The notes under the pieces were generated by a model, which worked only from the letters and a program-made list of their open reading frames with translations, searched no databases and was not told where the DNA came from. Shown here in pieces: positions 18,996 to 32,790 of a stretch of 64,000 nucleotides of DNA. The translations under genes and the position numbers were made by a program. Position 1 is the stretch's first letter. Each line of letters opens with the position of its first letter. The DNA is taken from contig CACMNV010000003.1 of NCBI GenBank assembly GCA_902615025.1, positions 1 to 64,000 on the forward strand, in the 5' to 3' direction. Source of the stretch: an uncultured SAR116 cluster alpha proteobacterium. GTDB taxonomy: Bacteria > Pseudomonadota > Alphaproteobacteria > Puniceispirillales > Marisalimonadaceae.

Positions 18996-20300
18996 CTACC
19001 ACCTTCTTTCTAGTTTTTTTCTAAGAATTACAGCAGCTGCATTCATAAAAATTAGAAAAACTAATAAAACAATAATAGCTGAACTAGTTTTTTGAATAAA
19101 CATTCTCTCTGCAAAATCAGCCCACATAAAAATTTGTACAGGAAGAACTGTACCTGGATCTGTAACACCTCCTGGTATATCAACAATAAATGCAACCATT
19201 CCAATCATTAACAATGGAGCTGTTTCACCTAATGCTTGTGCCATACCAATTATCGTTCCTGTAAGCATTCCTGGCATAGCTAAGGGTAAAACATGATGAA
19301 AAATAGTTTGTAGCTTAGATGCTCCTATTCCATAAGCAGCATCTTTTATACTAGGAGGAACTGCCCTAATTGCAGCTCTGGATGATATGATTATAGTTGG
19401 TAATGTCATCAAAGCTAGAACCATACCACCTAACAACGGAATAGATCTAGGCATTCCAAATACACCTATAAATATAGCCAAACCTAAAATACCAAAGACA
19501 ACTGAAGGGACTGCAGCTAAATTGTTAATATTAACTTCAATAATTTCGGTTATCCTGTTTTTTGGAGCAAATTCCTCTAAATAAACAGCAGTTGCAACAC
19601 CTAAAGGAAATGCGATGATAAAGCAAACTGCTAGAGTTAACATTGAACCAATAAAAGCACCTTTAATTCCAGCTATTTCTGGAGATCTTGATGCGCTTCC
19701 TGTCAAAATATAATCACTAAACTTATAGGAAATCCTGTTTTCAGCAGATAACTTATCGACAAATTTTATTACTGTGTCATTAATCCTTCTCTCTGAAGAT
19801 GGTGTTTCTCTTTTAATATATCCTCTTAAAAAACTATCTATATCATCATCAACAGCAAAAGTGATTGAAATGGTTTTACCTAGAATTTTTGAATTATCTA
19901 AGACCATTTTAGATATTCTTACATCAGCGTTAGAGGATATGATTTTTTTTGCAGCTTTTTTTTCTTTTCTTCCTTTAGGGTTTATAACCTTATATAGCGA
20001 TTCAAGAACTATTGACCGAGCATCACCATTATAAAGGGATTCTGGTGAAAGATCTCCTTTTGGATCAAGTCTATCTCTATCTAAGTACACATCCAAAGTA
20101 ACATAGTATTGAAAGAAACCAGGTATACCTTTAGAAAATATTGAAACAAATAAAAAAATTAAAAAACTTACTGCTAATCCTATCGCAATTCTACCATATG
20201 TTTTCAATCTAGCATCTTTTTTTCTTCGTCTTATAACTGATGATGCGACGATCTTGCTAGCTTCATCTGCTGTTAGCATTTTTGAGTTATTTTTATTCAT
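18996..20300 (-). CDS. pstA: Phosphate ABC transporter permease PstA
   Basis: Inner-membrane permease half of the Pst importer. The 434-aa protein is longer than E. coli PstA because a soluble region (about 60-215) follows the first membrane segment; this matches the DUF3333 N-terminal extension of alphaproteobacterial PstA. The permease core (about 215-430) has AVYLEEFAPKNRITEIIEVNINNLAAVPS (quoted in part: NINNLAAVPSVVFGILG) and the coupling-loop motif KDAAYGIGASKLQTIFHHVLP. It overlaps pstC by eight bases. Confidence 0.95.
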   Translation of the reverse strand: MNKNNSKMLTADEASKIVASSVIRRRKKDARLKTYGRIAIGLAVSFLIFLFVSIFSKGIPGFFQYYVTLDVYLDRDRLDPKGDLSPESLYNGDARSIVLESLYKVINPKGRKEKKAAKKIISSNADVRISKMVLDNSKILGKTISITFAVDDDIDSFLRGYIKRETPSSERRINDTVIKFVDKLSAENRISYKFSDYILTGSASRSPEIAGIKGAFIGSMLTLAVCFIIAFPLGVATAVYLEEFAPKNRITEIIEVNINNLAAVPSVVFGILGLAIFIGVFGMPRSIPLLGGMVLALMTLPTIIISSRAAIRAVPPSIKDAAYGIGASKLQTIFHHVLPLAMPGMLTGTIIGMAQALGETAPLLMIGMVAFIVDIPGGVTDPGTVLPVQIFMWADFAERMFIQKTSSAIIVLLVFLIFMNAAAVILRKKLERRW

Positions 20301-21678
20301 ACTGTTCTCGATATTTTTTAACTACGTGTAACGCATAAAAATTTAAAATCAGTGTTATTACAATCAAAGTTAATGCTAGTGCAAATGCTGATAAAGTCTT
20401 TGCAGATTCAAACTCTTGGTCACCAACTAAAATTGTAACAATTTGAGCTGTAACTGTAGTCACTGCATCAAGAGGGTTAAATGATAAATTAGCTGCAAGG
20501 CCAGCTGCCATTACAACAATCATGGTTTCTCCAATTGCTCTTGAGACTGCTAAGATAATACTTGCAATAATTCCCGGAAGTGCTGCAGGAATAATAACAT
20601 TTGTAATAACTTCATTCTTTGTAGAACCTAAACCATATCCAGCATCCCTAAGAGACTGGGGCACAGCGTTAATTACATCATCAGACAACGAGGATATAAA
20701 GGGAATAATCATTATTCCCATAACAAATCCTGCAGCTAAAGCTGATTCTGAAGCTACATCTAAACCTATAAGAGAGCCACCATTTCTCATCAATGGAGCA
20801 ACAGTTAATGCAGCAAAAAAACCGTAAACTACAGTCGGTATACCAGCTAAAATTTCAAGTAAAGGTTTGAAAATTGATCGCTCTTTTTTATTTGCATATT
20901 CAGACAAATAAACAGCGCTAAATAATCCAATTGGAACTGAAACACATAGAGCTATTAGAGATATTAAAAAAGTCCCTACAAACAGTGGAACTGAACCATA
21001 TGAAGCCAAGCCTTCTTGTCCAGAACCTGCTCGTTCAGCTCCTTCAAATTGTGGATTCCATGTTAATCCAAATAGAAATTCTGACGCAGGTATAATTGCA
21101 AAAAAACGTAAAGACTCAAAAATTACAGAAAATACAATTCCTATTGTTGTTAAAATTGCTATGATTGAACTAAGTCCTAAAAGAGAAATAATAATTTTTT
21201 CAACAGAATTTCTTGACCTAAATTCTTGGTGTATGTTTTTAAAACCCAAATATCCAATTCCTAAAGCTAAAGAAATTGAACAGAAAAAATTTAAAATTAA
21301 AGATTGATTATTCCATTCAATCATTTGATTTGAAGCTATAGTAACCCAATCAGGTTGTTCTCCAAAGTAAATACCTCTAACTGCATTATCAATCTGCGCA
21401 AGTACAATTATTTTATTAAAATCAGGAGAATTCAAAATTTCTTTTGGAACGAATTCCATAATTAAATTAGAAAATAAGATCCCATCAAATACCAATATTA
21501 GTAGATATGAAAAAAGTGATGGTATAATTGAATATAGAGCTACATATATACCATAATAATGAGGTAAAGAATTTAGTTTTAATTGTTTGTTTTTTAGAGA
21601 CAAAGCGGTTTTATTTCCAAAATAAAACCATAGTAATGATATAAGAAGAAGTAGTATAAGCAATGTATATTCGTTCAC
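20293..21678 (-). CDS. pstC: Phosphate ABC transporter permease PstC
   Basis: Second permease half of the Pst importer, 461 aa. It has additional N-terminal membrane segments (about 4-20, 45-70, 130-150) before the permease core. The core shows VPIGLFSAVYLSEYANKKER, LLEILAGIPTVVYGFFA and the ATPase-coupling motif SLRDAGYGLGSTKNEVITNV (about 340-358). Order pstS-pstC-pstA-pstB-phoU is canonical. A strong intercistronic hairpin separates it from pstS. Confidence 0.95.
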   Translation of the reverse strand: MNEYTLLILLLLISLLWFYFGNKTALSLKNKQLKLNSLPHYYGIYVALYSIIPSLFSYLLILVFDGILFSNLIMEFVPKEILNSPDFNKIIVLAQIDNAVRGIYFGEQPDWVTIASNQMIEWNNQSLILNFFCSISLALGIGYLGFKNIHQEFRSRNSVEKIIISLLGLSSIIAILTTIGIVFSVIFESLRFFAIIPASEFLFGLTWNPQFEGAERAGSGQEGLASYGSVPLFVGTFLISLIALCVSVPIGLFSAVYLSEYANKKERSIFKPLLEILAGIPTVVYGFFAALTVAPLMRNGGSLIGLDVASESALAAGFVMGIMIIPFISSLSDDVINAVPQSLRDAGYGLGSTKNEVITNVIIPAALPGIIASIILAVSRAIGETMIVVMAAGLAANLSFNPLDAVTTVTAQIVTILVGDQEFESAKTLSAFALALTLIVITLILNFYALHVVKKYREQYE

Positions 21679-21701
21679 TTATTTACCCCTTTTAAATGAG
21701 A

Positions 21702-21729
21702 TGAGACTACCATAGACATAGTAGTCTCA
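21702..21729 (-). promoter_or_regulatory. Intercistronic stem-loop between pstS and pstC
   Basis: A perfect 9-bp stem, TGAGACTAC paired with GTAGTCTCA, with a 10-base loop, lies in the 64-base gap between the pstS stop and the pstC start. No run of U follows on either strand, so it is not a standard intrinsic terminator. Such hairpins after binding-protein genes usually protect the upstream mRNA segment from 3' exonucleases, keeping the binding protein in excess over the permease. That role is inferred here. Confidence 0.75.
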
Positions 21730-21742
21730 CAAGTTTATAAGC

Positions 21743-22777
21743 TTATTTTTTTAACATATCTGCAGTTAAAACAGGAAGTTCTTTCATTGCCTTTGCATAC
21801 TTTGCTCTTTCTGCAGCAGGCATTGGTATCATGCCAGCATCAGCCAACATGCCATCATTACCCCAATTAGCTACCCATTTATCCATATATTTATCAATAC
21901 CCTTAATAACTCCTATGTGTTGATGTTTAACATAAAAGTAAAGAGCTCTTGATACAGAGTAGTTATTACCTGCGATATTTTCGAAAGTTGGAGCTGTCTT
22001 ACTAATTATTGCACCTTGGAGTGTGTCAGAATTTTGATCTAGATATGAAAAACCAAAGATACCATAAGCGTTTGGATCTTCTTGAAGTTTTTGTACAATT
22101 AAATTATCTTGCTCACCAGCTTCAATAAAAGCACCGTCAGTTCTCATAGCCCTACACTTTTTTCCTTTTTTATCGCCTCTGGCTTTTGATGCAGCTTTTG
22201 CTTCTTTGTCTTTTGCACAATAACCTTTTTGGTTTACCATTTCTGCATAAGAAGCTCTTGTACCAGAAGTTGTTGGTGGACCATAAACTCTTATTTCAAT
22301 GTCTGGTAATGAAGGATTAATATCACTCCATTTTTTATATGGATTATCAACCCATTTACCGTTCATTGGAATTTTAGCTGTTAACGCTTTTCCAAGGTCA
22401 GCTTTAGATATTTCTAACAACTTCCCTTTTTTAGAATTAGCAACAACAATTCCATCATATCCAACTTTAATTTCAGTTAGCTTAACTTTATTTTTATCGC
22501 AAAAAGCTAATTCTTTTGCCTTCATTCTGGATGATGCATTTCCAATATCGATAAATTTAGTACCAATTCCTTCACAAACACCTTTCTTACCAACTGAAGA
22601 ACCACCTGATTCTACAACTGGTGTTTTGATTGTTGGATCTTTTCCAAAAGTTTCAGCAATAATGGTCGCAAAAGGCAGCACTGTAGATGAACCAGCAATG
22701 CTAATATGCTCTCTTGCATTCGAAGCTGTCGCACTCAAAGCAAATGCAAAAACAGCAATGATTAATTTTTTTAACAT
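21743..22777 (-). CDS. pstS: Phosphate ABC transporter periplasmic phosphate-binding protein
   Basis: PstS captures phosphate in the periplasm. The 344-aa protein has a signal peptide (MLKKLIIAVFAFALSATASNA, cleavage near residue 21), then HISIAGSSTVLPFA with the phosphate-contacting Ser/Thr, VESGGSSVGKKGVCEG, DIGNASSRMK, and a second-domain loop PPTTSGTRASYAE, all in positions of PstS phosphate ligands. C-terminal part is lysine-rich, unlike the acidic proteins around it, typical of marine alphaproteobacterial PstS. It is the first gene of the pst operon, behind a Pho box. Confidence 0.95.
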   Translation of the reverse strand: MLKKLIIAVFAFALSATASNAREHISIAGSSTVLPFATIIAETFGKDPTIKTPVVESGGSSVGKKGVCEGIGTKFIDIGNASSRMKAKELAFCDKNKVKLTEIKVGYDGIVVANSKKGKLLEISKADLGKALTAKIPMNGKWVDNPYKKWSDINPSLPDIEIRVYGPPTTSGTRASYAEMVNQKGYCAKDKEAKAASKARGDKKGKKCRAMRTDGAFIEAGEQDNLIVQKLQEDPNAYGIFGFSYLDQNSDTLQGAIISKTAPTFENIAGNNYSVSRALYFYVKHQHIGVIKGIDKYMDKWVANWGNDGMLADAGMIPMPAAERAKYAKAMKELPVLTADMLKK

Positions 22778-23742: not shown

Positions 23743-24750
23743 ATGAAAAATGTTAACTTTGCAATAAATGGCTTAGGTAGAATAGGTAAATTACTTTTTC
23801 GTGCTTTATTTGATAAAGGCCTATCTATTAAATTGGTTAATGAGATAAATGGTAATTTAGAGATTAATTCTGAATTATTAATTCATGATTCTATTCATGG
23901 TAAATGGGATAAAGATATATTCCTCAATAAAAATGATTTAAAGATAAATAATAGTATTATTAAATTTTCAAACTATGAAAATTTAAATGATATTCAACTA
24001 TCGGATATTGATATTTTAATTGATTGTACCGGAAAAAATAAAAATTTCGAATACTTAAGTAATTACATAAAAAATGGCGTTAAAAAGGTGATTGTTTCTG
24101 CTCCAATAGATGATCCAAAAATATTAAATTTAGTGTATGGCATTAATCACTATTTATATAATGAAAATGAACATAACATCATTACAGGAGCAAGTTGCAC
24201 AACAAATTGCATAGCTCCTATTGTAAAAGTTATTCATGATAATCTCAAAATTAATCATGGATCAATAACAACAATTCATAACATCACAAATAGTCAAACT
24301 ATCATTGATAAGCCTTCTTCAAATCTTAGAAGATCAAGAGCATCAATGACAAATCTTATTCCAACAACTACAGGTTCTGCTAAGGCCATTAATCTGATCT
24401 ACCCTGACTTAAAAGGTAAATTAAATGGGCATGCTATCAGAGTACCTGTAATTAATGCCTCTTTAACAGACTGTGTTTTTGAAGTTAAACAAAACACTTC
24501 TAAAGAAGAAGTTAATAAACTTTTAAAAGAAGCATCAAAAAATAAATTAAAAAACATACTTGGGTATGAAGAAAAATTATTAGTTTCATCTGATTATTTA
24601 AATGATCCAAGAAGTACAATAATTGATGCAGATTCAACAATGGTAGTTAATGAAACTCATGTTAAAGTTTATGCTTGGTATGATAATGAATGGGGCTACG
24701 TAAATAGATTAGCTGATATCGCAAGTATGGTTGGGAAATCAATTTGTTAA
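23743..24750 (+). CDS. ArsJ-associated glyceraldehyde-3-phosphate dehydrogenase
   Basis: A 335-aa type I GAPDH. NAD site INGLGRIGKLLFRALF, catalytic Cys in ASCTTNCIAP (about 153), and LRRSRASMTNLIPTTTGSAK are intact, and the C-terminus has YAWYDNEWGYVNRLAD. In GAPDHs encoded beside arsJ the enzyme uses arsenate in place of phosphate to make 1-arseno-3-phosphoglycerate, which ArsJ exports (Rosen laboratory work on ArsJ). The segment TTIHNITNSQTIIDKP and the tightly coupled arsJ (7-base overlap) fit that specialised branch rather than the glycolytic housekeeping enzyme, whose usual HAYTNDQ motif is replaced. Arsenate role is inferred from the pairing. Confidence 0.88.
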   Translation: MKNVNFAINGLGRIGKLLFRALFDKGLSIKLVNEINGNLEINSELLIHDSIHGKWDKDIFLNKNDLKINNSIIKFSNYENLNDIQLSDIDILIDCTGKNKNFEYLSNYIKNGVKKVIVSAPIDDPKILNLVYGINHYLYNENEHNIITGASCTTNCIAPIVKVIHDNLKINHGSITTIHNITNSQTIIDKPSSNLRRSRASMTNLIPTTTGSAKAINLIYPDLKGKLNGHAIRVPVINASLTDCVFEVKQNTSKEEVNKLLKEASKNKLKNILGYEEKLLVSSDYLNDPRSTIIDADSTMVVNETHVKVYAWYDNEWGYVNRLADIASMVGKSIC

Positions 24751-26000
24751 GCTCAATTAACTTCAAAGACAAAAATATTTTTTCATATTTACTAGTAACT
24801 ATATCCTATTGGTCTTTTATGTTGACTGATGGGGCATTAAGAATGCTGGTATTATTACATTTTCATGTTTTAGGTTTTAACCCAATACAACTAGCTTATC
24901 TTTTCTTATTATATGAATTCGCTGGTATTGTAACCAATCTTTCAGCAGGATGGCTTGCATCAAAATTTGGTTTAAATATTACACTTTTTTCAGGATTAAT
25001 TTTACAAATAATTTCTTTATTATTGTTAACTCAGGTAAATGAAAATTGGACTATTTTAGCTTCCGTTGTTTTTGTTATGTTTGTCCAGGGTTTATCTGGT
25101 GTCTCAAAAGACTTAACAAAAATGAGTTCTAAAAGTGCTGTGAAATTACTAGCACCAGAAAAAAATACCAAACTATTTAAATGGGTTAGCTTTTTAACTG
25201 GTTCAAAAAATACAGTTAAAGGGTTAGGTTTTTTTATTGGTGGACTTTTACTATACCTATTTGATTTTCAAACTTCCCTTGTAATCATGAGTATTATTTT
25301 ATTTGTAGTACTTATTATATCTTATATTACAATACCAAAAAATTTGGGGACCATAGATAAAAAAGTAAAGTTTTCAGAGGTATTTTCTAAAAATAAAAAT
25401 ATCAATTTCTTAAGTTTGAGTAGAGTGTTTTTATTTGGTGCTCGTGATGTATGGTTTGTAGTGGGACTGCCATTATTTTTTTATTCAATTTTATCTGATG
25501 GCTCGGTAAATAATAATAAAAATGCTTTTTTTATAATCGGATCATTTTTAGCGTTTTGGATAATAATCTATGGTATTATTCAAACTCTAACACCTAAATT
25601 GACAAAAAATCAAATTTCAAAAACTTCTTCAGTACAAGTCGCTAAAAACTGGAGTTTATATTTGTTTCCAATTCCAATAATTTTATTCTTTTTACTTAAA
25701 TTGCATCCATCTAATGAAAATTTTAATTTAGTTATTACAATTATAATTTTATTGGTTTTTTGTATTTTCTTTGCAATAAATTCATCTCTTCATTCCTTTT
25801 TAATTTTAAAATTTACTGATAAAAAAAGAGTTGCTTTAGATGTAGGCTTTTATTATATGTCCAATGCTGCAGGAAGATTAGTTGGAACTTTATTTTCTGG
25901 ATTATCATATACATTTGGTGGTATGGAATTTTGTTTATTCATAAGTTCAGTTTTTCTTTTAATTAACAGACTTAGTATGAGTAATATTAAAGAACAATAA
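24744..26000 (+). CDS. arsJ: Organoarsenical efflux MFS transporter ArsJ
   Basis: ArsJ is a major-facilitator exporter of 1-arseno-3-phosphoglycerate, which then breaks down outside the cell, giving arsenate resistance without reduction. The 418-aa protein has the family-specific SYWSFMLTDGALRMLVLLHF at the N-terminus, FLLYEFAGIVTNLSAGWLA, LSGVSKDLTKMSSKSAVKLL and LTGSKNTVKGLGFFIGGLL, and ends with a GFYYMSNAAGRLVGTLFSGL segment. Start is TTG overlapping the GAPDH stop by seven bases. No ArsR repressor is visible. A decayed copy of its 3' third lies at 33.1-33.4 kb. Confidence 0.9.
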   Translation: MLSSINFKDKNIFSYLLVTISYWSFMLTDGALRMLVLLHFHVLGFNPIQLAYLFLLYEFAGIVTNLSAGWLASKFGLNITLFSGLILQIISLLLLTQVNENWTILASVVFVMFVQGLSGVSKDLTKMSSKSAVKLLAPEKNTKLFKWVSFLTGSKNTVKGLGFFIGGLLLYLFDFQTSLVIMSIILFVVLIISYITIPKNLGTIDKKVKFSEVFSKNKNINFLSLSRVFLFGARDVWFVVGLPLFFYSILSDGSVNNNKNAFFIIGSFLAFWIIIYGIIQTLTPKLTKNQISKTSSVQVAKNWSLYLFPIPIILFFLLKLHPSNENFNLVITIIILLVFCIFFAINSSLHSFLILKFTDKKRVALDVGFYYMSNAAGRLVGTLFSGLSYTFGGMEFCLFISSVFLLINRLSMSNIKEQ

Positions 26001-26089: not shown

Positions 26090-26920
26090 ATGAACGAAAT
26101 AGTAAAAGTTTACTGGCAACCAGGTTGTTCAAGTTGTTTAAAAACAAAAGAGTTTCTTGAAATAAATAATATTAAATTTGAATCAATAAATATATTAGAA
26201 GATCCAAGAGGATTTAAAGATTTAGAAAAGTTTGGCTTAAGGATGGTTCCTATTGTTATTAAAGGAGAAAACTGGGCAAATGGTGCTGTTTTTAGAGATG
26301 TAGCAAAAGTTGCAAAATTCACTTATAACGAGCATAGAATGCTTGAGCCTAACATCATTTTTTCAAAAATTATTCAAATCAACGAAATTACATGTTCTTT
26401 TTTAAAACAAATACCAGTATCAAAATTAGATGTTATATTACCAGGACGACCAAGGTCATATAGACAGTTAATTTATCATATTTTTAATATTCCAGAGGTC
26501 TTTTTAAATTACTTTCAAAATGATACCCCTTACACTTATGAAGCTTTACTATCAATACTACCTGATCAAATTAAAGATGAAAACGATCTCTATAATTATG
26601 CTGAAGATATTAAGTCAAGATTTGAAAGTTGGTGGTTTAATGAAGGAAAGAATTTTGGTTTTTCGAAACCAGCTAATGTGTATTATGGAGAGGTTTCATT
26701 TCATGAAGTACTTGAAAGAACAGCCTGGCATTCAGGTCAACATTGCCGGCAAGTTGAATTACTTCTTAAGGAGAAGCTTAATATAATTCCAAAAATTGCA
26801 TTAAATGAAACTTTGTTTGCAGGACTTCCTATGCCATCTAATATTTGGGATAACGAAAGATCTTTCTCTGAAAGTTCTTATGATGGTCAAGTTAAAGAAG
26901 ATTTAAGTATAAAAGAATAA
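26090..26920 (+). CDS. Glutaredoxin domain fused to a DinB-like domain
   Basis: A 276-aa two-domain protein. Residues 1-80 form a glutaredoxin: VYWQPGCSSCLKTKEFLE with the redox CxxC pair, and the cis-Pro loop RMVPIVIKGENWANG. Residues about 95-250 look like a DinB/YfiT four-helix bundle, with a His in YRQLIYHIFNIPEVF and the HxxxH metal motif in AWHSGQHCRQVELL, giving the expected three His ligands. The fusion suggests a thiol-dependent (glutathione, mycothiol-like or other) transferase or redox enzyme, but no activity is known. It lies 89 bases after arsJ on the same strand; membership of the arsenate operon is possible but not shown. Confidence 0.78.
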   Translation: MNEIVKVYWQPGCSSCLKTKEFLEINNIKFESINILEDPRGFKDLEKFGLRMVPIVIKGENWANGAVFRDVAKVAKFTYNEHRMLEPNIIFSKIIQINEITCSFLKQIPVSKLDVILPGRPRSYRQLIYHIFNIPEVFLNYFQNDTPYTYEALLSILPDQIKDENDLYNYAEDIKSRFESWWFNEGKNFGFSKPANVYYGEVSFHEVLERTAWHSGQHCRQVELLLKEKLNIIPKIALNETLFAGLPMPSNIWDNERSFSESSYDGQVKEDLSIKE

Positions 26921-26938: not shown

Positions 26939-28264
26939 TTAAAGTTTAAGACCTGAGAAGTATTCTGACTTATTATAAATATCCAAACAAAAATTTGATA
27001 AAAACCTATCTTTGAAAGGATGACCACACAAAAGAATTCCAACTGGCATTTTATTATCATCTAAACCAGTCGAACAACTAACAATAGGTCCTGACAAAGC
27101 TGTCCATGGGGCAATATATTTTGGTTCTCCTGTACTTTCTAGACCAACAGGAGCTGAATTTGGAATAGCAGGAAAAATAAAAATCGTATTTTTATTAAAA
27201 GAAGAAAAGAATTTATTTATAGATTTATTAAGTTTTGATTTGGTTTCTGTATATTTTTCAATGTCTATCTGTAATCCATCTTTTATAATTTGAAGAAGTC
27301 TAGGCCCAATTAATTCTTCAGGATGATTAAGTAAAAATTGTAAATTTTTTCCTGTTTCATAAATTAACATTTCCCAATGCAAATCTAATAAATCGTTAAA
27401 CTTCACTGGAGACACTTTTTCTTCAACATTAAAACCTAGTCCTTGTAACATAGACTTAGTCTCTTCAATTTGTTTTGATACATTAGGATTAATATCTGAC
27501 GTTAATTCATCTGTTATGCTAATTATATTCACATCATTCTTATCCAAAGATTTCAAAGGTAACTTGTCATTTAATGACACAGAGTTATAGCCATAACATG
27601 CGTCTGCTATTGACCATCCATAAAATCCAGGTGTGTCAAAAGACGGAGCTAATGGAGATATACCATAAGTAGTTATTGTACCGTTTGTGGGCTTAAAGGC
27701 TGAGATGCCACAATAAATTGCAGGTCTATTTACAGATGCCATGGTTTGGGTTCCAACTGACATTGGGACTGTTCCACTTGCAACAGATGAACCAGATCCA
27801 CTACTCGATCCACCTGGTGTATGATTTGGGTTATGTGGATTTCTTGCTGGAGATGGATCATAAAATGCAAATTCAGTTGTATGGGTTTTACCCAAAATAA
27901 TTGCTCCAGCAGACCTTAAAGCTAAAACAACACCAGAATCTAATTTTGAAACTTCTGTATCTCTAAAAGCCTTACAATTAAATTCAGTTTTAAATCCTTC
28001 AACATAAATGATATCCTTAATCCCTACAGGAATGCCGTGAAGAGGGCCTAAAATATTATTATCTATTACTTGTTGCTCTCTTAATTTTGCTGTTTCAATA
28101 GCTTTTTCAAAATCATAGCTCTTCCATTGTTCAATATCTTTTTGTGTATCGTTAATTCTATTTATGTAGCTATTGATTAGATCAACAGGAGAGAGTTTTT
28201 TATCTTTGATGTCATTAAATAAATCTTGAAGATTGCCAGGATTTTTTACAAAATTTGAAGACAT
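26939..28264 (-). CDS. Amidase, amidase-signature family
   Basis: A 441-aa Ser-cisSer-Lys amidase. The catalytic Lys is in GIPVGIKDIIYVEG (about 86), the cis-Ser in GGSSSGSGSSVASGTVPM (about 155-160), and the nucleophile Ser in the GTQTMASVNRPA segment (about 180). Several positions differ from GatA (canonical GTDTGGSIRxPA), and no gatB/gatC is nearby, so it is a free amidase rather than the tRNA amidotransferase subunit. It follows the ABC importer genes by 14 bases and is probably their last gene, suggesting that the imported solute is an amide or that the enzyme acts on its product. Confidence 0.85.
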   Translation of the reverse strand: MSSNFVKNPGNLQDLFNDIKDKKLSPVDLINSYINRINDTQKDIEQWKSYDFEKAIETAKLREQQVIDNNILGPLHGIPVGIKDIIYVEGFKTEFNCKAFRDTEVSKLDSGVVLALRSAGAIILGKTHTTEFAFYDPSPARNPHNPNHTPGGSSSGSGSSVASGTVPMSVGTQTMASVNRPAIYCGISAFKPTNGTITTYGISPLAPSFDTPGFYGWSIADACYGYNSVSLNDKLPLKSLDKNDVNIISITDELTSDINPNVSKQIEETKSMLQGLGFNVEEKVSPVKFNDLLDLHWEMLIYETGKNLQFLLNHPEELIGPRLLQIIKDGLQIDIEKYTETKSKLNKSINKFFSSFNKNTIFIFPAIPNSAPVGLESTGEPKYIAPWTALSGPIVSCSTGLDDNKMPVGILLCGHPFKDRFLSNFCLDIYNKSEYFSGLKL

Positions 28265-28278
28265 TTTTTTTCCTATAA

Positions 28279-28977
28279 TTAAGTGGATACACCAAGAAAT
28301 TTTAAAGTGAGTTTTTTATTTTTAGATAGTTCTTCAGACTTTCCTTCAAATACTATTTCTCCTTGATCTAAAATATAAACTCTATCAGCTACATCCAAAG
28401 CAGTTTGAAGATTTTGTTCAACAAGAATAATACTCATACCCTCTTTTTTTAATTTAATAAGCATTTCTTTTACGTCTTCAACAATCATTGGAGCCAGTCC
28501 TTGAGAAGGTTCATCTAACATTATAACAGATGGATTAATTACCAAAGATCTTCCAATCGCGAGCATTTGTTGTTCACCACCAGATAGTGAATTACCATTT
28601 CTAAATTTCAATTTTTCAAGTTTTGGAAAAAGTTGAAAAACATCATCAATATTCCATTTAGAATGTTTTAAATGAAATATTTTTAAATTCTCATATGCTG
28701 TTAATGTTGAAAATATACCTCTGCTTGCTGGGACAAAAGAAATTCCTTTTTTAGCAACTTCATGAGGCTCGAAATTTGTGATTTCTTCACCTTTTAAAAC
28801 TACACTTCCATCACTTGAATGAGCAAGACCCATAATACTTTTAATTGTCGTTGTTTTTCCAGCACCGTTTCTTCCTAAAATACTAATGATCTCACCTTCA
28901 TTCACATTTAAGCTAACACCTTTTAACATGTGTACGAGACCGTAGTATGTATGTAAATTTTTTATTTCTAAATGCAT
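28279..28977 (-). CDS. livF: Branched-chain-type ABC transporter ATP-binding protein LivF-like
   Basis: Second ATPase of a HAAT-family importer, 232 aa. Walker A GRNGAGKTTTIKSIMGL, signature LSGGEQQMLAIGRSL, Walker B VIMLDEPSQGLAP and LVEQNLQTALDVADRVY are typical of LivF. It abuts the LivG gene with a one-base overlap. The substrate is set by the binding protein and is not known; LivF-like is a family statement, not evidence for leucine. Confidence 0.92.
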   Translation of the reverse strand: MHLEIKNLHTYYGLVHMLKGVSLNVNEGEIISILGRNGAGKTTTIKSIMGLAHSSDGSVVLKGEEITNFEPHEVAKKGISFVPASRGIFSTLTAYENLKIFHLKHSKWNIDDVFQLFPKLEKLKFRNGNSLSGGEQQMLAIGRSLVINPSVIMLDEPSQGLAPMIVEDVKEMLIKLKKEGMSIILVEQNLQTALDVADRVYILDQGEIVFEGKSEELSKNKKLTLKFLGVST

Positions 28978-29723
28978 TATTTTCTTCCTAAGTAAGCATC
29001 TTGAACTTTTTTACTATTTTTAATTTTATTAGGAGAACCTTCTTCTATTTTTTCCCCAAAATTTAAAACAGTAATTATTTTAGAAATTTCCATAACAATA
29101 TGCATTTTATGTTCTATTAATAATATTGTATATTTTTTGGAAAGTTGCCTGATAAGCTCAGTCATTTCAACAGTAGCTTCTGGCGCAAGACCTTGTGTTG
29201 GTTCGTCTAATAATAATAAATCAGGTTTAGCTCCAAGTGTAATAGCCATCTCTAACATACGTTGTTGTCCATGTGATAGTTCTTCGGCTTTATCGTCAAT
29301 TTTATGGGATAGTCCAACGTCACTTACAATTTTTTTTGTTTCTTTATCAATAGCTTCAAAGTCATTCATTGATTTGAAAAGATCGATTTTACTTTTATGA
29401 CTACATGAAAAGATCGATGCCCATACATTTTCTTTTACCGTTAATTTTGGAAAAACATTTGTTATTTGGAAACATTTGGCAATACCCATATGAGGTAATT
29501 TATAACTTTCAAAGCCAGTAATATCTTTATCTTTATAATATACGTAACCATCAGATGGAGGAATTACACCAGAAATCATATTAAAAAATGTTGATTTACC
29601 TGCTCCATTAGGGCCAATGATAGAATGTATTGTTCCTTCTTCTACTTCAATACTTATATTAGAAACAGCAGAGACATTTCCAAAATTTTTAGTTAAGTTT
29701 TGTATTTTTAATATCTTGTTCAT
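28977..29723 (-). CDS. livG: Branched-chain-type ABC transporter ATP-binding protein LivG-like
   Basis: First ATPase of the importer. The ORF track starts at 29780, but the first 19 residues there (MNYLKTFSKSIKQF) are only the livM 3' end read in another frame; the ATG giving MNKILKIQNLTKNFG at 29723 fits LivG and leaves a 35-base overlap with livM. Walker A GPNGAGKSTFFNMISG, signature LSHGQQRMLEMAITL and Walker B LLLLDEPTQGLAP are complete. The YRK-like C-terminal VQDAYLGRK is the usual LivG end. Confidence 0.92.
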   Translation of the reverse strand: MNKILKIQNLTKNFGNVSAVSNISIEVEEGTIHSIIGPNGAGKSTFFNMISGVIPPSDGYVYYKDKDITGFESYKLPHMGIAKCFQITNVFPKLTVKENVWASIFSCSHKSKIDLFKSMNDFEAIDKETKKIVSDVGLSHKIDDKAEELSHGQQRMLEMAITLGAKPDLLLLDEPTQGLAPEATVEMTELIRQLSKKYTILLIEHKMHIVMEISKIITVLNFGEKIEEGSPNKIKNSKKVQDAYLGRK

Positions 29724-30648
29724 GTTCCGTTTTTCTTGAAATTGCTTTATACTTTTTGAAAAGGTTTTCAAGTAATTCACTCATACCCCCTCTAAAGTAT
29801 AAAACTACAATTGCAAATATCACTCCCATAATTAACGGCCATCTCGCCCAAATAATTGAGAAAGTATCAGACAACCAAATATATCCAACCACACCAATAA
29901 GAGGTCCAAGGAAACTACCAACTCCTCCAAAAAGTGTCATAAAAATTATATCTCCAGATTTAAGCCAATGAATTTGATCAATGGGTACCATACTATGAAT
30001 TAATACATAGAGAGATCCTGCTAATCCTGTAAATGTGCTCGCTATAGAAAATGATATTAACTTATAATATCTTACGTTATAACCTATCGCTTCTGCTCTA
30101 CTTGCATTTTCTCTAATAAGTTTAAAAATCAAACCCAATGGTGATGTAACGATTTTGTACAATGCTAAGACAGCTAGTAAAAACATTATCGCGGTAAAAA
30201 TATAAAATGTTAGTTGAGAGTCTATATAAGTAGGTCTTTCAACACCCACAAGGCCATCTTCACCTCCGGTAACTTCAGTCCAAACATATGCTATAAAATA
30301 AAACATTTGATTAAAAGCAAATGTTAGACAAATAAAATATAGGCCCTCTCGTTTAACACAAAAATAACCAACAAATAAAGAAATTATAAAAGAACCTAAA
30401 GTTGCTACAGGTATGGCTAAAAATAGAGGGAACCCACCCAGTAGCATTAATCCAGATATGTAAGCTGATGTCCCAAAAAACAATGCTTGTCCAAAAGATA
30501 GCATACCAGTGTAACCCAACATAATATTTGTAGAAATTGCTACAATGCCAAAAATTAACATCTCTGTAATAGTTGCATTAGGAAATAGAAAAGGACCTAC
30601 AAACAAAAATATTATTAATGCTATAAAACTATATTTATTTTGTATCAT
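29689..30648 (-). CDS. livM: Branched-chain-type ABC transporter permease LivM-like
   Basis: A 319-aa permease with about eight membrane segments. It has the family segments NIMLGYTGMLSFGQALFFG near the N-terminus, FIRENASRAEAIGYN-like LIRENASRAEAIGYNVRYYK (EAA-type loop), and FGGVGSFLGPLIGVVGY. Its gene overlaps livG by 35 bases and livH by four bases, all in one operon. The C-terminal tail is basic and charged (ISRKTEHEQD), typical of the cytoplasmic end. Confidence 0.92.
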   Translation of the reverse strand: MIQNKYSFIALIIFLFVGPFLFPNATITEMLIFGIVAISTNIMLGYTGMLSFGQALFFGTSAYISGLMLLGGFPLFLAIPVATLGSFIISLFVGYFCVKREGLYFICLTFAFNQMFYFIAYVWTEVTGGEDGLVGVERPTYIDSQLTFYIFTAIMFLLAVLALYKIVTSPLGLIFKLIRENASRAEAIGYNVRYYKLISFSIASTFTGLAGSLYVLIHSMVPIDQIHWLKSGDIIFMTLFGGVGSFLGPLIGVVGYIWLSDTFSIIWARWPLIMGVIFAIVVLYFRGGMSELLENLFKKYKAISRKTEHEQDIKNTKLN

Positions 30649-31505
30649 CTCACACCAAAAAGACCTTGAGGTCTAAAAATTATTGTTAAGCCCATCATCA
30701 CATATATCACAACATTTGTTGCTTCTGGAAACCATATGGTAGCCGCTCCTTGTGATAGTCCAATTAAAATTCCTGCAATTATAGCTCCCGGTATACTTCC
30801 CAAGCCTGCAACTACAACAACCACAAAACATATTGGTAAGATATCTAAACCCATCGATGGAGTAAGTCCCATAATTGGAGCAGAGAGGGCGCCAGCTAAG
30901 CCAGCTAGATAAGCACCTAAACCAAATGTATATAAGAAAACCATATTTACGTTAATTCCTAGAACTTTGACCATATCTCTATTCTCAATTCCTGCTCTCA
31001 GAATTGCTCCTAAATTAGTTTTGGTTAAAAATAAATAAAGACAAATTATCATAAAAAACGCAAAACATATCAAAACTAACCTATATTTTGGATATATTAA
31101 AAATCCAAGATCTATAGCACCACTTAAACTTGGAGGTGCTAAAAGAGAAAAACCAATTGGACCCCAAAATATTATAATAATTTCTTGTATTATAAGAGCA
31201 CATGCGAATAAGAATAAGAGCTGGTAATCGTGATGCGCATGATACAACCTTCGGACTCCTTGACTTTCTAAAATAAACCCAACCAAAACAACTAAAAGAG
31301 GCGATAAAAACATTGCAAAATAAAAAGAACCTGTAATTTTGGCAATAGTATAGGCAAAATATGCACCTAAAGCATACAGAACACCATGAGCAAAATTAGG
31401 TATGTTTAGTACTCCTAATATTAATGTCAAGCCGACACCAACCAGAGCGTATAACATGCCAAGTCCTAAGCCGTTTAAAATTTGAGATATAATCAAAAAG
31501 GTCAT
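30645..31505 (-). CDS. livH: Branched-chain-type ABC transporter permease LivH-like
   Basis: A 286-aa permease with about eight membrane segments. Family motifs are LNGLGLGMLYALVGVGLTLI, LGVLNIPNFAHGVLYALGAY and the coupling loop RAGIENRDMVKVLGIN, followed by VVVAGLGSIPGAIIAGILIG. It starts 61 bases after the binding-protein gene, with a stem-loop in the gap, and overlaps livM by four bases. Confidence 0.92.
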   Translation of the reverse strand: MTFLIISQILNGLGLGMLYALVGVGLTLILGVLNIPNFAHGVLYALGAYFAYTIAKITGSFYFAMFLSPLLVVLVGFILESQGVRRLYHAHHDYQLLFLFACALIIQEIIIIFWGPIGFSLLAPPSLSGAIDLGFLIYPKYRLVLICFAFFMIICLYLFLTKTNLGAILRAGIENRDMVKVLGINVNMVFLYTFGLGAYLAGLAGALSAPIMGLTPSMGLDILPICFVVVVVAGLGSIPGAIIAGILIGLSQGAATIWFPEATNVVIYVMMGLTIIFRPQGLFGVR

Positions 31506-31525
31506 AATATTCTTTTAAAAGTTTA

Positions 31526-31547
31526 AGACGGCATGAAAATGCCGTCT
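31526..31547 (-). promoter_or_regulatory. Intercistronic stem-loop between the binding-protein gene and livH
   Basis: A perfect 9-bp stem AGACGGCAT / ATGCCGTCT with a 4-base loop lies in the 61-base gap. On the minus strand, the transcribed one, it is followed only by TAAACTTTT, so it would terminate weakly if at all; on the plus strand a short T run follows. As in the pst operon, the likely role is to stabilise the binding-protein segment of the message or to reduce read-through into the permease genes. G+C-rich content stands out sharply from the surrounding AT-rich DNA. Confidence 0.78.
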
Positions 31548-31566
31548 CTTTTTATAGTATTAATGC

Positions 31567-32790
31567 TTAAAATGATCCAATATCTTCGCACATATTAATA
31601 TTCTTTGGCTGTTCAGTAGAACTTACATCTACAACTTCAGCCATGTCATATTCATTTTTCATATCATTTTTCTTCTTAGTCTGAAGTACAAAAAATGGAC
31701 GAACAGTCTGATGATTTCTACCTCTAATTTCAAAATCACCCACAAAGTTCTTTCCTTTATGTTCTTCTAGAGCAGTTATGACCTTTTGAGGTTCTGTACT
31801 ACCAGATTTTTGCATACCTAATAAAGTCATTTTCATAAGACCATATCCTGCTGCACCTGCATATCCAGGAGGAACACCTTTGAATTTCTTTTTGTAAGCC
31901 TCAACAAACTTTTTATTATCAGGATTATCTATAGTGTAATAATAGTTAGAGCCAACAATAAGATTTTCCCTAGCTGCAGGGTCAAGTTGGATCAGCTCTT
32001 CAAAGCCAGAAGACCAAGACATTATGACCGGTTTCTTTGGCGTAAAACCAAAGTTATTTAATTGTCTAACTGCTGAAATGGCATCTAAACCAAAGTTAAT
32101 CATATAGACCGCATCTGGATTTTTTGACATAGCCTTAGTGATAAATGTTGAATATTCTCTGTGACCTAATGGATGTCTATCTACACCTACAACTTCTAAG
32201 CCATATTTTGGTGCTAAACTTTCAACATATTTTTGTAATGTCCATCCAAAAGCATAGTCAACTACAAATAAATATATTTTTTTTGCATTAGGATTAGCTT
32301 TTTTAAAGATTTTTAGATCTGCATCCATAGCGGTCCATGCATTTGCCGCCCACATAAAAGCATATTTGTGACATTTTTTTCCTGAAATGTCCTCTGTACC
32401 ACCAGAAAAATAATACATAACTTTATTTTTCTTTGCTACTTCAGTTACTGCTAATGCTACGCCTGAAGACCATGGTCCAATAATAAATTTTACACCTTCC
32501 GTATCTATAGCTTCTTGCGCTCTTCTGGCAGCAGGACCAGCTTTGGTTTCACTATCTCTAGTAACATATTTTATTTTTTTTCCGTTGATTGTATAATTTA
32601 CTTCTTCAAGAGCTATTCTTGCTCCTTGATCTGTTAATTTCCCAGAATCTGCATAAGGACCACTAAATGGAAATAATCCTAAAATATTAACAGTATCTGA
32701 CAATGATAGACTTGACGAAATTGAAAATAAAATACTAAAAAATATAGTCGTCATTTTCAATCTTAAGCCATAAAGGAATGATACCTTCAT
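31567..32790 (-). CDS. ABC transporter substrate-binding protein, type 1 periplasmic (branched-chain/amide class)
   Basis: The periplasmic receptor of the importer, 407 aa. A basic start and hydrophobic stretch TTIFFSILFSISSSLSL form a signal peptide; the exact ATG (residue 1 or residue 13) is uncertain. The mature part begins VNILGLFPFSGPYADSGKL and has FIIGPWSSGVALAVTEVAKK, the usual type 1 fold segments, and MNFGLDAISAVRQLNNFG. The class binds branched-chain amino acids, urea, amides or aromatic acids; the ligand cannot be read from sequence. It heads the operon, separated from livH by a stem-loop. Confidence 0.88.
   Translation of the reverse strand: MKVSFLYGLRLKMTTIFFSILFSISSSLSLSDTVNILGLFPFSGPYADSGKLTDQGARIALEEVNYTINGKKIKYVTRDSETKAGPAARRAQEAIDTEGVKFIIGPWSSGVALAVTEVAKKNKVMYYFSGGTEDISGKKCHKYAFMWAANAWTAMDADLKIFKKANPNAKKIYLFVVDYAFGWTLQKYVESLAPKYGLEVVGVDRHPLGHREYSTFITKAMSKNPDAVYMINFGLDAISAVRQLNNFGFTPKKPVIMSWSSGFEELIQLDPAARENLIVGSNYYYTIDNPDNKKFVEAYKKKFKGVPPGYAGAAGYGLMKMTLLGMQKSGSTEPQKVITALEEHKGKNFVGDFEIRGRNHQTVRPFFVLQTKKKNDMKNEYDMAEVVDVSSTEQPKNINMCEDIGSF

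Follow-up and report, generated by a model that had tools for sequence, protein, structure and literature searches.

In DinB proteins, for example BstA and mycothiol S-transferase, a metal activates a low-molecular-weight thiol. Both of these proteins and mycothiol-dependent maleylpyruvate isomerase share a four-helix bundle with a three-histidine site containing HxxxH and perform thiol-dependent chemistry; none of them has an N-terminal glutaredoxin or selenocysteine (Sec). For BstA, H67, H160 and H164 were proposed to hold the metal, and EDTA abolishes activity (PMC5815605). DinB is also joined to a second catalytic domain in EgtB and SenA, where DinB is N-terminal and its partner is of the sulfoxide-synthase type.

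In redoxins, Sec placed in the CxxC motif is the attacking nucleophile. Glutaredoxin-like Sec/Cys redoxins lacking a DinB domain are represented by UXX-star and HUGP/GUXX-star (NF041212, NF041211, NF045501). A review of prokaryotic selenoproteins from May 2026 counts 119 families and subfamilies, and single-domain Sec-glutaredoxins (Grx, PF00462, UxxC), in which the first active-site residue is Sec or Cys, are already among them (PMC13188914).

Here we describe a protein family in which a glutaredoxin of this kind is joined to a DinB metal domain. The stretch of DNA analysed (hereafter the window) comprises 64,000 nucleotides of a SAR116 contig and encodes a Cys form of the family, with the following features:

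26090..26920, + strand: glutaredoxin-DinB fusion, Cys form of the family; open reading frame of 276 aa with ATG start
26102..26266, + strand: glutaredoxin domain, residues 5-59, NrdH-like; PF00462 match and fold match to 7c10 and 3zit
26126..26137, + strand: active-site codons C13-S14-S15-C16 as read from the sequence, the C13 codon being TGT
26396..26755, + strand: DinB_2 domain, residues 103-222, four-helix bundle; PF12867 match and fold match to 6iz2, 2f22 and 1rxq
26477..26479, + strand: H130, first likely metal ligand, conserved in 47/47 homologues; counterpart in type of BstA H67
26729..26743, + strand: H214-x3-H218, second and third likely metal ligands, conserved in 47/47 homologues; HxxxH spacing as in BstA H160/H164
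26822..26851, + strand: C-terminal motif G-L-P-x-P-x3-W-D, residues 245-254 (L246 in 47/47, P247 in 44/47 and W253 in 41/47 homologues)

The preliminary description of this gene had proposed a CSSC glutaredoxin domain joined to a DinB-like bundle with three likely metal histidines, and each of these elements was recovered. Residues 5-59 match Pfam Glutaredoxin (PF00462) above cut-off (E 7e-9, 36.2 bits, cut-off 22.9), with C13 and C16 in place. This domain is closest to NrdH and YruB models and to NrdH structures; the nearest NCBIfam models, TIGR02194 and TIGR02196, both stay under cut-off. The match of residues 103-222 to DinB_2 (PF12867) is weak when the protein is searched alone (E 2e-4, 22.3 bits, cut-off 24.8) and barely above the cut-off of 24.8 in the genome-level scan (24.9). 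Among eleven family members tested, ten matched DinB_2, the best with an E-value of 1.4e-10. Since the fusion is present in many lineages, the joining of both domains is not due to chance.

An AlphaFold2 model, built from an alignment of nine close relatives, has a mean pLDDT of 82 and a pTM of 0.78. Foldseek matched the model to the DinB/YfiT structure 6iz2 (E 9e-5, TM 0.83 by target length), to further DinB-type structures (2f22, 1rxq and the maleylpyruvate isomerase 2nsf), and to the glutaredoxins 7c10 and 3zit (TM about 0.85). Thus, the DinB fold is present in the model as is the glutaredoxin fold. Model confidence is low at the C-terminal G-L-P-x-P-x3-W-D motif, which is specific to the fusion family.

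The order of domains, a thioredoxin fold followed by an all-helical domain, is also that of glutathione S-transferases (GSTs). The thioredoxin-fold domain might then bind glutathione and the helical domain a hydrophobic substrate, with a structural metal, in glutathione conjugation or reductive deglutathionylation. Weak fold matches to GST, DHAR and maleylacetoacetate isomerase structures were indeed obtained, and glutathione-using DinB members have been reported. However, most GST matches have TM-scores of 0.3 or below and rmsd above 10 A, which identifies the helical domain as DinB rather than GST, and we consider such a GST-like mode of action quite improbable.

An alignment of 47 homologues reveals that C13 (as Cys or Sec), S15, C16, K20 and P54 are invariant, so that the glutaredoxin hallmarks, CxxC and the cis-proline loop, are present in 47/47. 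In the DinB part the same is true for H130, H214, Q217, H218, R220 and Q221. H130 and the H214-x3-H218 pair constitute the DinB hallmark, a histidine followed by HxxxH, and form the predicted metal site; they fit the three-histidine pattern of BstA (PMC5815605). Judging from the alignment and the model, these three histidines are expected to hold one divalent metal.

The sole other DinB match in the window's genome (G000) is an EgtB joined to EgtD, located at G000:C9:39851-40243 (L001) in a frame of 749 aa; the part of the frame that was read scores 4.6e-168 for EgtB and 2.3e-77 for EgtD. Given this frame, the SAR116 lineage of the window probably makes ergothioneine.

In 18 of the 32 alphaproteobacterial carrier genomes found first, the first CxxC codon of the fusion is an in-frame TGA, giving U-T/S-S-C; the remaining 14 are Cys-only, and one genome (G363) holds one gene of each form. 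Altogether, 18 TGA genes were compared with 29 Cys genes. In the class-wide scan, many of the 32 carriers show exactly one TGA inside the fusion. The TGA always occupies the same codon, is usually the sole one in frame, and the reading frame is kept on both sides of it. Within the order around G123, a copy with in-frame TGA was found in 68/68 carriers. Loci at which the TGA is accompanied by a SECIS-like hairpin include L026, L030, L034, L036, L041, L042 and L045, besides others.

This hairpin is shared by the 18 TGA genes and consists of seven pairs (columns 33-39/45-51 after the TGA), with 96% of cells paired. Three of the pairs are altered on both sides, i.e. by compensatory changes, and the covariation score was equalled in 0/500 shuffles and lies far above slid controls. 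Because the hairpin lies within coding sequence, codon constraint could give part of the signal; against synonymous-codon shuffles, intended as control for this, it is better in every TGA gene (z -1.9 to -4.2). Nine further TGA genes outside the discovery set fold likewise (z -1.2 to -3.1). With a 7 bp stem, a CGUGN loop, 36 nt spacing and regional MFE of -12 to -22 kcal/mol, the hairpin conforms to bacterial SECIS rules, which demand a stem of 4-16 bp, a loop of 3-9 nt with G in the first two places, a distance of 16-37 nt from UGA and MFE of at most -7.5 (PMC13188914). No shared hairpin is present in the Cys genes, that of the window included.

Machinery for Sec insertion is distributed in the same way. 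SelB was detected above the curated cut-off in 17/18 TGA genomes versus 3/14 Cys-only genomes (Fisher p 3e-5), tRNA-Sec matches of 66-78 bits were found in 16/18 TGA genomes, and 71/76 genomes of the order around G123 possess SelB. In one genome (G110) SelB lies 7 kb from the fusion, a single case that we take as coincidence. As SelB, tRNA-Sec and the hairpin are three independent checks, Sec insertion in the TGA forms is supported.

We considered whether the TGA forms could instead be pseudogenes, products of sequencing errors or genes with a reassigned TGA codon. One observation pointing this way is the sole TGA genome without SelB (G068), in which tRNA-Sec was not found either; this genome is 77% complete. 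On the contrary, the codon position is fixed over 18 genomes and then over all carriers of one order, the frame is conserved on either side, the hairpin exceeds synonymous-codon expectation, and SelB and tRNA-Sec are present. Further, several of the TGA-containing fusion genes use TGA as their terminal stop as well, so the codon is not reassigned. The likelihood of these explanations is negligible, and we rejected them on the grounds of codon position, hairpin and SelB/tRNA-Sec. Across much of Alphaproteobacteria the fusion family is, as judged from sequence, a UxSC selenoprotein. In the window it is represented by a Cys homologue that lacks SECIS and SelB: its codon 13 is TGT, it contains no in-frame UGA, and neither SelB nor tRNA-Sec was found over cut-off in its genome, which is 74% complete.

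Concerning distribution, the fusion was detected in 32/385 genomes of Alphaproteobacteria and in 1/321 of Gammaproteobacteria, and a phylum-wide scan returned mostly genomes without it. In the order around G123 it occurs in 68/76 genomes. Within the SAR116 family it is confined to one genus (6/13 genomes, versus 0/45 in other genera), and near copies (92-94%) are found in SAR116 single cells and MAGs. Cys copies are also carried by plasmids of Burkholderiales, Rhizobium and Roseomonas. In the phylogenetic tree, the window copy falls into a well-supported clade of 13 rows, all of them Cys (100/99), which includes Hyphomicrobiales MAGs, a Roseomonas plasmid copy and G114. At least five Sec-Cys changes are required on this tree, the backbone of which is unresolved. 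Of the two copies of G363 (L054, L060), one is a Cys form related closely to the clade of the window and the other a Sec form; G1163 and G1168 possess a second fusion copy without TGA.

The fusion is absent from the 119 families of the review, whose text never mentions DinB (PMC13188914), and in open papers we found none that pairs DinB with a selenoprotein in such a sense. No NCBIfam model reaches its cut-off on the window protein or on four Sec forms. With models of the UXX-star type the window protein scores far under cut-offs (33.9 vs 66, 26.9 vs 100 and 22.7 vs 325), and the four Sec forms are likewise under them; these are weak matches of the glutaredoxin domain to redoxins that, unlike the fusion, have no DinB part. 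The fusion resembles the single-domain selenoprotein Grx in its fold and in the Sec or Cys exchange at the first active-site position, and differs from it in the attached DinB metal domain, in its occurrence in Alphaproteobacteria and in the Cys of the window copy. From BstA and the mycothiol enzymes it is distinguished by the N-terminal glutaredoxin and by Sec, their thiol-dependent chemistry being only predicted for the fusion; from EgtB and SenA, by a redoxin as second domain. The fusion family is apparently an unlisted one among selenoproteins and is represented in the window by a Cys member.

The broader notion of an attached redoxin serving a thiol-dependent enzyme, likewise put forward in the preliminary description, agrees with the domains, CxxC motif, predicted fold and three histidines, and with what is known of both domain types. 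Sec at the first CxxC position marks this residue as the redox nucleophile. In the mechanism that we propose, the DinB metal would hold and activate a low-molecular-weight thiol, presumably glutathione in these bacteria. The activated thiol would add to, or isomerise, an electrophilic small molecule, in the manner of BstA, mycothiol S-transferase and mycothiol-dependent maleylpyruvate isomerase. In the glutaredoxin, the first Cys or Sec could then resolve the mixed disulfide or S-adduct so formed, C16 being the putative resolving thiol, and the glutaredoxin might be recharged by glutathione or thioredoxin reductase, in keeping with a gene for the latter just downstream of the fusion in Caballeronia NK8. 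For the broader proposal, the chances seem to us evenly balanced: a Sec-glutaredoxin joined to a DinB metalloenzyme would form a widespread, unlisted selenoprotein family, core in one or more alphaproteobacterial orders, and would act on a small molecule by a new, metal-dependent thiol chemistry assisted by a selenol; Cys versions like that of the window would have been taken up by lineages without Sec machinery.

Further, we examined the surroundings of the fusion. The neighbouring features in the window are as follows:

23743..26000, + strand: ArsJ-associated GAPDH and ArsJ pair, adjacent, judged to be outside the system of the fusion; profile matches
26939..28264, - strand: amidase (amidase signature family), convergent neighbour of the fusion; PF01425 E 2e-56
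28279..32790, - strand: Liv (branched-chain-type) ABC transporter with two ATPases, two permeases and a substrate-binding protein; names read from the sequences without a domain search

A phosphate-type ABC transporter set, comprising a substrate-binding protein and two permeases (18996-22777, read from the sequences), sits just upstream of an enoyl-CoA hydratase and the ars pair.

The position beside arsJ, noted earlier as a hint at thiol-arsenic chemistry, is real: the upstream pair is confirmed by its profile matches (ArsJ 9e-156, ArsJ-associated GAPDH 8e-150), and the fusion adjoins it directly downstream in the window and in L006. Some known selenoproteins are moreover tied to arsenic or mercury resistance (PMC13188914), so that one might picture the fusion acting on thiol-arsenic species alongside ArsJ and the arsenate GAPDH. 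The comparison of loci argues against it. ArsJ near the fusion is limited to SAR116 (L004, L005, L006 and the window), and tblastn of the window's ArsJ against 46 loci gave matches only in L004, L005 and L006; at loci outside SAR116 it was found in 0/41. Even within SAR116 the ars pair is missing from L003, where the fusion occupies the corresponding position, and a dehydrogenase gene separates the two in L004 and L005. Across the SAR116 family ArsJ occurs in 34/58 genomes and is not significantly commoner in fusion carriers (5/6 versus 29/52; Fisher p 0.38). Homologues of the same architecture are thus widespread without arsenic genes, an outcome named beforehand as speaking against the link. 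We rejected the arsenic partnership, which is very improbable.

The gene directly upstream of the fusion in L003 (4983-5873), L004 (4983-5873) and L005 (4986-5876) is 3-hydroxyisobutyrate-dehydrogenase-like, and L059 has a gene of its sequence cluster near the fusion.

Closer association is observed with the amidase. Among 13 genomes of the window's genus, amidase and fusion co-occur exactly, with the amidase in 6/6 carriers and 0/7 non-carriers; such a match would arise by chance in 1 of 1716 cases, although it could also stem from inheritance of both genes as a single block. The Liv-type importer adjoins the amidase in all SAR116 relatives. In Roseomonas, a peptide-type importer lies upstream and the gene order is isochorismatase-family hydrolase, fusion, AtzG-like protein and AtzE-like amidase; an isochorismatase-family gene of G114 stops 43 bases ahead of the modelled start of the fusion match. 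This suggests a part for the fusion in amide catabolism in the window's clade. In SAR116 it most likely works with the amidase beside it and the Liv-type importer as a small catabolic unit, rather than in arsenic metabolism. Because neighbours vary beyond the clade of the window, this link to amides may be a local one. Other lineages show diverse, mostly catabolic or redox neighbours (SDR, TctC, FMN oxidoreductase, FAD oxidase, chromate transporter), and no operon partner conserved across all lineages was found, neighbour clusters being mostly lineage-specific, as far as the gene caller, imperfect in GC-rich DNA, allows. In L067, L072 and L077, an FMN oxidoreductase of the old yellow enzyme type, examined with Pfam in L067, ends 20 bases or fewer from the start of the Sec-form match and is a possible operon partner in that lineage.

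The lack of a single conserved pathway neighbour would also suit a housekeeping function, in which a glutaredoxin/NrdH-like reductant repairs glutathionylated or oxidised targets and DinB serves as a non-catalytic thiol- or metal-binding adaptor. The affinity of the redoxin domain to NrdH and YruB accords with this, as does the thioredoxin reductase gene (L016 10824-11831; TIGR01292 374.7 bits, cut-off 343.45) that immediately follows the Cys-form fusion on a plasmid of Caballeronia NK8. However, the invariance of the three DinB histidines along with Q217, R220 and Q221 suits catalysis better than a passive adaptor, and the fusion travels with an amidase in the window's genus; we regard the housekeeping function as rather unlikely. 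We tentatively favour a thiol-dependent metalloenzyme with its own redoxin, which in SAR116 may act together with the amidase and the Liv importer.

Genes of this family with in-frame TGA are likely annotated as truncated or too short, and misannotation of the family may extend to entire alphaproteobacterial orders. Selenocysteine comes at a high cost and is as a rule retained where a redox nucleophile has to be fast; its retention here thus indicates which residue is catalytic in this unstudied enzyme. The exchange of Sec and Cys makes the function of the fusion directly testable, by comparing Sec with Cys, with or without metal. The fusion would also add a reason, beside formate dehydrogenase, for the retention of SelB in these bacteria.
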